A stretch of 35,935 bases of DNA from Candidatus Altimarinota bacterium (GTDB lineage Bacteria > Patescibacteriota > Gracilibacteria > Absconditabacterales > Absconditicoccaceae). Location: positions 1-35,935 of the forward strand of contig JALTWR010000026.1 in the NCBI GenBank assembly GCA_027046965.1, given 5' to 3'. The position numbers and the translations under genes were made by a program. Below the pieces are notes generated by a model, which worked only from the letters and a program-made list of their open reading frames with translations, was not told where the DNA came from and did no database searches. Of the stretch, positions 18,234 through 19,621 are shown piece after piece. Position 1 is the first letter of the stretch. Each line of letters begins with the position of its first letter.

Positions 18234-18371
18234 ATGAAAATAGTTATTAAAGACTTAACATTTGCAGCTTTAATAGGGGTATATCCTCACGAGCGTGTCC
18301 AACCCCAGCTTTTGAGAATAAATGCCCAAATTGAATATCAACGGGGGAGAGTTCAAGGCTCCGTGCACTAA
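18234..18371 (+). pseudogene. folB: Dihydroneopterin aldolase fragment (truncated)
   Basis: The first 35 residues (KIVIKDLTFAALIGVYPHERV, then LRINAQIEY) match the N terminus of FolB/dihydroneopterin aldolase, the folate-pathway enzyme of about 120 residues. After about position 18338 the frame enters unrelated, GC-richer sequence and stops at TAA after 45 residues. The catalytic Lys and the C-terminal part are absent from the window. The remaining expected length (about 250 bp) would fit exactly into the space now filled by the foreign island, so the 3' part appears replaced rather than displaced. An assembly error is possible. Confidence 0.65.
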
Positions 18372-18624
18372 GTGGGGGCTCGCAATATTGTCCCCCACAA
18401 AAGACCCTCCAGTAAAGGTGACTTTTTTCTCCTTATGGGGAGAAGAAGTGGTTACAATCCAGATCAGGCCAGAATGGAGCGAAAAGAGGCAGAAGTACAT
18501 TGCCAAGGTTCCTGTAATGTGCATTCTGCCAGATCGGATGGAATGGGAGGGAGTCATTGTTTTTGATAGTGAAAGGTTTGATGGATTCACAGTCTTTACA
18601 GTAACAACTGAAGGCAGGGAGTAA
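18322..18624 (+). CDS. Foreign-looking ORF of unknown function (possible chimera)
   Basis: 100 residues, no family recognised; beta-rich with many Trp and Val (VTFFSLWGEEVVTIQI, EWEGVIVFDSERFDGFTVF). Its base use is unlike the neighbours: about 46% GC over 18361-18600 against about 30% around it. All seven Gly codons are GGN and none is TGA. The stop is TAA followed at once by TGA, then a GC-rich terminator. These are marks of a standard-code genome. The ATG at 18322 lies in folB sequence in another frame, so the true 5' end of the inserted gene is probably missing. Either a transferred fragment or a mis-joined contig. Confidence 0.5.
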   Translation: MPKLNINGGEFKAPCTKWGLAILSPTKDPPVKVTFFSLWGEEVVTIQIRPEWSEKRQKYIAKVPVMCILPDRMEWEGVIVFDSERFDGFTVFTVTTEGRE

Positions 18625-18626
18625 TG

Positions 18627-18654
18627 AGGAGGTGGGAACCCCCACCTCCTTTTC
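18627..18654 (+). terminator. Rho-independent terminator of the foreign island
   Basis: A perfect 9-bp stem GGAGGTGGG (18628-18636) and CCCACCTCC (18641-18649) with a 4-nt loop, followed by TTTT. It is far richer in GC than any other hairpin in the window and directly follows the foreign ORF. Confidence 0.85.
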
Positions 18655-18655
18655 C

Positions 18656-19621
18656 TTATTGGCTAAAATTATTTTCAACTTTCTTTTTTAAATATTCTAC
18701 CAATGATGTAGCATAACTACCACGAGGTAGTTCAAACATCAAAAGCAAGTCCTTATTTTGCCATTTCCACTTTAAATCCTTTGGTATCACTAAAATAGGT
18801 CTACGGATACCAAATACTCCAAAATCTTTGAACTTTTCCAAAATCTCCAATCATTTACCAAAAAAATCTTTTAAAATCTGCTCTTCAAATTTCCAAGCTT
18901 GAGAACCTTCTATAGGCAATGGCAAATCTCGTCAATAAACAGGGCCTAGCACAATTCAGCTTTCATTCATTAAGTCACCTTCAAGAGGATTATCCCAATC
19001 CTTTCCAAAGTTTCTTATCCTAGCAAGCAAATATTGGTTGAACAAACGTGAACTTAAAGCTTGAACTTTAAACTGCTTTTCAAAAGAAGGTAAATTTTTG
19101 TGATAACTTCCTTCTATTAGTTTTTTTCCTATTTTCCAATTTTCACCTCAACGTCAAAATCTCTGAGTGCCAAAAAAATTCGGAAATCAATTTTTAGCAA
19201 TCAAAGCAAGTTCCTTTTCAATACCATTTTTGACAGCCCAATCTACATCCCTTAATCTCAAAAAAAACAAATTACCGGTATTTTTACCAACCTTCAAAAG
19301 CTCATCTCCCCATCAATACTTAAGTACTTGGGCAACTTCACTCAATGCTTTTAAAAACTTTGATGGTCATCATCTACGAGACAAAGTGTTTTTGTAAATA
19401 CTAATCCGTTGTCTTGTAATACCGTACTTGTCTTTTAATCAGGCAATACCTAAATGATTTCTTTGCAAATGAAGTCTTCTCATCAAATGATGCAAGATAT
19501 CCATGGTGTTTTTGTTTTTCTTTTCAAAAAACACATAAAAAACTTTACCCTTTGAACCAATAGAGTAGGGGATTTTTTCTTCTACAATGAAATCCTGTGG
19601 CTTTTGCTTAAATTTAAACAT
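18656..19621 (-). CDS. truD: tRNA pseudouridine(13) synthase
   Basis: 321 residues. Isomerises U13 of tRNA in the characterised family. The N terminus FKFKQKPQDFIVEEKIPY and the catalytic motif GLKDK (61-65, Asp64, with the Gly encoded by TGA) identify TruD. NFFGTQRFG and the C-terminal ELPRGSYATSLVEYL are further family blocks. The stop codon TAA at 18656-18658 directly abuts the terminator of the foreign island, so the last few residues could be affected if that junction is artificial. Confidence 0.93.

Follow-up and report, generated by a model that had tools for sequence, protein, structure and literature searches.

Code-11-compatible phages predicted for, and targeted by, Gracilibacteria or Absconditabacteria have been described, whose genes lack in-frame TGA and carry several stops at their ends (PMC10746230). 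Transfers into Gracilibacteria have been proposed, and folate biosynthesis genes were reported missing in another Gracilibacterium (PMC6851277). The window analysed here, a stretch of 35,935 nucleotides, is contig C26 of an 855-kb genome in 32 contigs that uses code 25, with TGA read as glycine; TGA makes up 40% of the glycine codons in the 33 genes of the window. Between the beginning of a folB gene and a convergent truD gene lies a GC-rich island (Table 1) which, like the genes of the code-11-compatible phages, is free of in-frame TGA and has different stops close together at its gene end. Unlike them, it is a fragment of only 93 codons and has no phage homologue. The explanation that we tentatively prefer, with a probability of about 0.4, is that what is left of an acquired gene, together with the gene's terminator, most likely from a host-adapted code-11-compatible phage or element, took the place of the end of a dispensable folB.

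Table 1. Features around the folB/truD junction (positions in the window)
Feature	Position	Strand	Description
Upstream host gene, 159 aa	17754..18233	+	Hydrophobic N-terminal region and Excalibur calcium-binding domain; code 25, 5 in-frame TGA
folB stub	18234..18341	+	First 36 codons of a FolB/dihydroneopterin aldolase gene; codon usage host-like
GC-rich island, 315 bp	18342..18656	+	48.6% GC; codon usage outside host windows
Open frame, 93 codons	18343..18624	+	TAA stop, then TGA; all-beta model; no homologue
Intrinsic terminator	18626..18653	+	GAGGAGGTGGG-AACC-CCCACCTCCTT, tail TTCCTTATTG; z -3.4
truD (tRNA pseudouridine synthase D)	18656..19621	-	Complete, convergent; 10 in-frame TGA=Gly; Pfam PF01142, E=1e-47

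The folB stub and its folate context

The TAG stop of the Excalibur-domain gene adjoins the folB ATG at 18234. Similarity to FolB covers profile positions 1-34 of 113 (18240-18341; Pfam PF02152, E=4e-7, 31 bits); the NCBIfam models TIGR00526 and TIGR00525 also match (E~1e-5) and end at residue 34-36 (about 18336-18341), and the tblastn alignment of the stub with plasmid folB genes stops at residue 34. These ends agree with the sequence-only reading, which had placed the loss of FolB homology near 18338. The frame continues for 9 codons past the match and then meets a stop. By profile, the stub holds the N-terminal part of the FolB T-fold domain, and its 34-36 residues resemble those of PF02152 and TIGR00525, including the GVYPHER segment; the best plasmid matches are to Azospirillum folB, with 48% identity over 33 residues. 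Unlike FolB, the stub lacks the last ~77 residues, so that the complete domain of about 113 residues, with its C-terminal half, was not found, the stub stopping at position 34-36. The stub is not expected to be a working aldolase.

The missing C-terminal part (about 77 codons) matched nothing elsewhere in the assembly, even at E<=10, and therefore the island replaces rather than shifts it, as had been claimed. None of the other frames matches the profile, so a FolB C-terminus concealed in one of them was rejected.

A serious rival, which we consider less likely, is an assembly chimera or wrong gap fill, in which a foreign read or short contig from the sample joined two host contigs, one ending in folB and one starting at the end of truD. 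It is favoured by the cutting of two genes at one point with both frames broken, by the absence of the FolB C-terminus from the assembly, and by the length of the missing folB (about 240-250 bp plus spacer), close to that of the 315-bp island. The assembly also has a scaffold gap of exactly 10 N that was left unfilled (L080:13933-13942, contig C12). It is opposed by the right border, which falls at a terminator and the truD stop, an improbable outcome for a random join, and by the examination of ~610 kb without meeting a similar island that interrupts a coding gene. Since a single run of N was seen inside a contig in about 610 kb of assembly, with some small contigs masked as N, systematic gap-filling is not evident, which favours acquisition.

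None of the 48 other genomes of the same family has folB, whereas 66 genomes elsewhere in the class do; the 30 FolB sequences fetched from those 66 are not close to the stub. The genome has no second folB copy, and dihydropteroate synthase (PF00809) was not detected in it, while 13 of 14 control genomes were positive. Because folB is lacking in the family relatives and dihydropteroate synthase in this genome, folB is here probably a late arrival or a relic under little selection, with a stub that was either decayed or acquired. Its loss would therefore cost little, and this apparent dispensability is in line with the acquisition that we prefer. The description of the gene as an interrupted folB hence holds for the truncation, the stub being better read as decayed or acquired.

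Composition and coding capacity of the island

The left border of the island lies at about 18336-18345 and the right one somewhere within 18624-18656. No other window of 315 bp in the contig has a higher GC content (mean 30.7, sd 4.0); the sequence-only reading had recognized the GC-rich stretch and its length, with a lower figure (about 46%) than the 48.6% of the island proper. Codon usage of the frame 18343-18621 lies beyond all 761 equal-sized host windows, whereas that of the folB stub scores within the host range, and GC3 of the island frame is 0.51 against a host maximum of 0.37. The break in composition after folB was thus rightly noticed, and the GC and codon usage outside the host range, with a stub inside it, argue for acquisition. 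Precisely at the border between folB and the island stands a run of five G (18343-18347). The open frame changes there by one base, to +1 relative to folB, and reading both jointly gives a second part without FolB similarity. Restriction-site avoidance gave no signal of foreignness. Against acquisition, there are no matching repeats at both borders and no integrase or target duplication at the flanks, and elements of a host of 31-33% GC would not usually have 48% GC. A transposon or insertion element was rejected, since terminal inverted repeats and target duplication are absent and the 315 bp hold no transposase.

None of the 93 codons of the island frame is TGA, and the frame ends in the tandem stops TAA-TGA at 18622-18627, both as previously described. 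The TGA-free frame with two different tandem stops shows the marks reported for the phages of PMC10746230, in support of acquisition. The use of the standard code, also claimed, fits this frame and is weakly shown, given that 0 of 7 glycines are TGA (P=0.028 under host usage) and that an open frame does not by itself decide the matter: some fully open code-11 frame is present in 7% of dinucleotide shuffles of the island, and the island itself has a second one on the minus strand. Coding statistics are weak and speak against acquisition of a gene (period-3 P=0.12; amino-acid composition no better than in shuffles). Single-sequence AlphaFold, however, gave a pLDDT of 65.5 and a pTM of 0.54 for the plus frame, well above the overlapping antisense frame used as control (37.2 and 0.26), and on the basis of these models the plus frame probably encodes a real, mostly beta protein. 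As no start codon with context exists inside the island, a possible and fortuitous ATG at 18322 being within the folB stub, the frame resembles a gene's 3' end, probably that of an orphan gene cut exactly where folB is cut.

The plus strand may have a further property. The RNA fold of the island reaches z -4.2 with the terminator and -3.2 for the body without it, host coding windows reaching -4.4. Shuffles that preserve the protein and the codon counts also fold less well than the strand itself (z -3.0, 0/300 shuffles), so that an RNA role is possible; Rfam gave no match to the island up to E=1. Such folding counts against acquisition and agrees with a native locus, in which the terminator closes a resident GC-rich sequence (an orphan gene or else a structured RNA) and the decay of folB reached as far as the edge of this sequence. 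The correct layout of gene end, terminator and convergent gene also speaks for this origin. Codon usage far beyond the host range, a frame without TGA, a fold model that favours protein and searches of relatives that did not find the island speak against it, and we regard it as a serious rival that is less likely than acquisition.

The GC-rich terminator adjoining the truD stop was also correctly described: its strong 11-bp hairpin occupies 18626-18651 and the tail runs into the truD stop codon (18656-18658). As in intrinsic (rho-independent) terminators, an 11-bp hairpin with a 4-nt loop is followed on the plus strand by a T-rich tail; unlike in them, the tail, TTTTCCTTA, is not an unbroken T run. 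A search allowing up to 3 mismatches detected no other copy in the genome, and the terminator may just as well be part of the native junction of folB and truD as of the island. The truD relatives align over the full length with 39-42% identity; no close ones showing the same site without the island were found, and gene order near truD is not conserved within the family. A 21-bp exact match links the terminator/truD junction (18648-18668) with contig C29:26789-26809; it lies inside an unrelated coding gene, was rejected as a related locus and is probably due to chance.

Relatives and dinucleotide signature

The island protein found nothing credible in Pfam, PHROGs, NCBIfam, PADLOC and PDB sequences, in phages, plasmids, IMG/VR and GTDB contigs, or in 48 family relatives, 353 class genomes and 380 phylum genomes, and its exact 8-residue seeds gave no relative in 84,980 species. 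The scans of IMG/VR and GTDB contigs are seed-based and detect close relatives only, so that distant ones could be missed. Matches at E 0.002-0.005 (two genomes, G185 and G591, and PADLOC Cas4d with 15 bits) were dismissed as short or at noise level, and matches of a degenerate motif in IMG/VR as chance. Foldseek of the model against PDB and viral models gave nothing below E 0.28. As no phage relative was obtained with PHROGs, INPHARED phages, phage tblastn and blastn, or the seed and motif scans of IMG/VR, the island is not filed as a phage gene. That the protein is an orphan in all the collections searched supports acquisition; that no phage or genome collection yielded a homologue counts against it and leaves the source a proposed one. 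The searches of other genomes, which did not find the island sequence, also disfavour its insertion by the assembly from another organism.

The dinucleotide signature of the island is host-like, which was unexpected. The GC-corrected delta* between island body and host is 0.110, host windows having a mean of 0.138; E. coli windows have a mean of 0.238, and 0.3% of them are as close to the host as the island. CpG o/e is 0.27 in the island, 0.37 in the host, 1.12 in E. coli and about 1 in GC-rich relatives of the class. Host-like signature and CpG depletion make an arbitrary mid-GC bacterium an unlikely source and agree better with an element adapted to the host, with a donor poor in CpG or with a native origin. 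Both traits are expected of a host-adapted element, as our preferred reading has it, the signature also agrees with a resident locus, and their resemblance to the host and not to E. coli or other GC-rich genomes further weakens a misassembly.

On these grounds, it appears highly improbable that homologous or illegitimate recombination brought in a gene fragment of some ordinary bacterium with the standard code, such as a prey or host cell. The 48.6% GC, the GC3 of 0.51 and the lack of TGA as sense would suit such a donor, as would the assignment of these CPR bacteria to a group thought to live on other bacteria, for which incoming transfers were proposed (PMC6851277). However, the CpG o/e and delta* given above are atypical of a mid-GC bacterium such as E. 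coli, and the 8-residue seeds met no relative in the 84,980 species. The sequence-only reading had suggested a code-11 donor or a gap fill from a co-occurring species, and had named neither a phage gene nor a native structured or orphan locus. The discontinuity is real, and GC and codon usage agree with foreign coding DNA, but neither of the two suggested options is established, no relative having been found and the signature being host-like.

Proposed origin and other GC-rich stretches of the genome

For the acquired fragment that we prefer, we infer acquisition, a phage-like source, recombination and loss of function in the following way. The source would be mobile DNA adapted to such hosts, most likely a code-11-compatible phage or element of code-25 bacteria, and the acquired piece would be a gene 3' end, 93 codons and stop, with its own intrinsic terminator. 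Recombination would have deleted the last two thirds of the dispensable folB, with the terminator coming to lie beside the convergent truD. Stub and fragment would now be non-functional remnants, and at most the terminator may still end transcription between two convergent units. A broader proposal, that the island is the end of a host-adapted standard-code mobile gene class which crosses code-25 bacteria, its own terminator settling between convergent genes, is very unlikely; if true, such a class would be a direct record of gene flow over the TGA=glycine code barrier.

Real junctions would mean that standard-code, or code-compatible, DNA has been fixed in a TGA=glycine genome with loss of the recipient gene, and transfer cases of this kind bear on the degree to which lineages are isolated by an altered code. 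An assembly join would be a warning that short GC islands in metagenome bins of such bacteria need read support before transfers are claimed.

Outside tRNA clusters and coding genes, the other GC-rich stretches met in about 610 kb of the genome are an RNase P-like RNA (L077, recognized by eye), leaders of pheT and tyrS, and a segment upstream of mutL, these three gene names being read from translations and not from profile search. Because these GC-rich, non-tRNA intergenic segments are mostly RNA-like, and the two leaders and the mutL segment end in terminators, the resident-locus explanation stays alive; the two clear structured RNAs, on the other hand, fold far more strongly than the island (z -9 to -10). 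Placing the island in one RNA family with the pheT and tyrS leaders was rejected, no convincing alignment being found and its fold being much weaker.

The pheT leader (L070:15960-16250, minus strand, contig C2) is a GC-rich, RNA-like and extremely stable stretch of 291 nt directly upstream of the gene, with z -10.2, multiple hairpins including a long one of 37 bp, and a terminator. Rfam, including T-box, gave no credible match to it, and it is a candidate new attenuator of an aminoacyl-tRNA synthetase gene. The leader directly upstream of tyrS (L079:2950-3245, minus strand, contig C11; 296 nt, z -9.0) has a similar layout of hairpins, a long 36-bp hairpin and a terminator; the loop context GGUAUUCC and UUGGACAAG is common to both leaders, which share little other sequence. 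The GC-rich mutL segment with its terminator (L098:1400-1625, plus strand, contig C31) has z -2.1 and contains a Shine-Dalgarno-like site and a Phe/Tyr-rich frame of 14 codons (GTG AGC GTC GTA TTT GTC TAT TTC TTT CTC ACC ...), which resembles an attenuator leader peptide.
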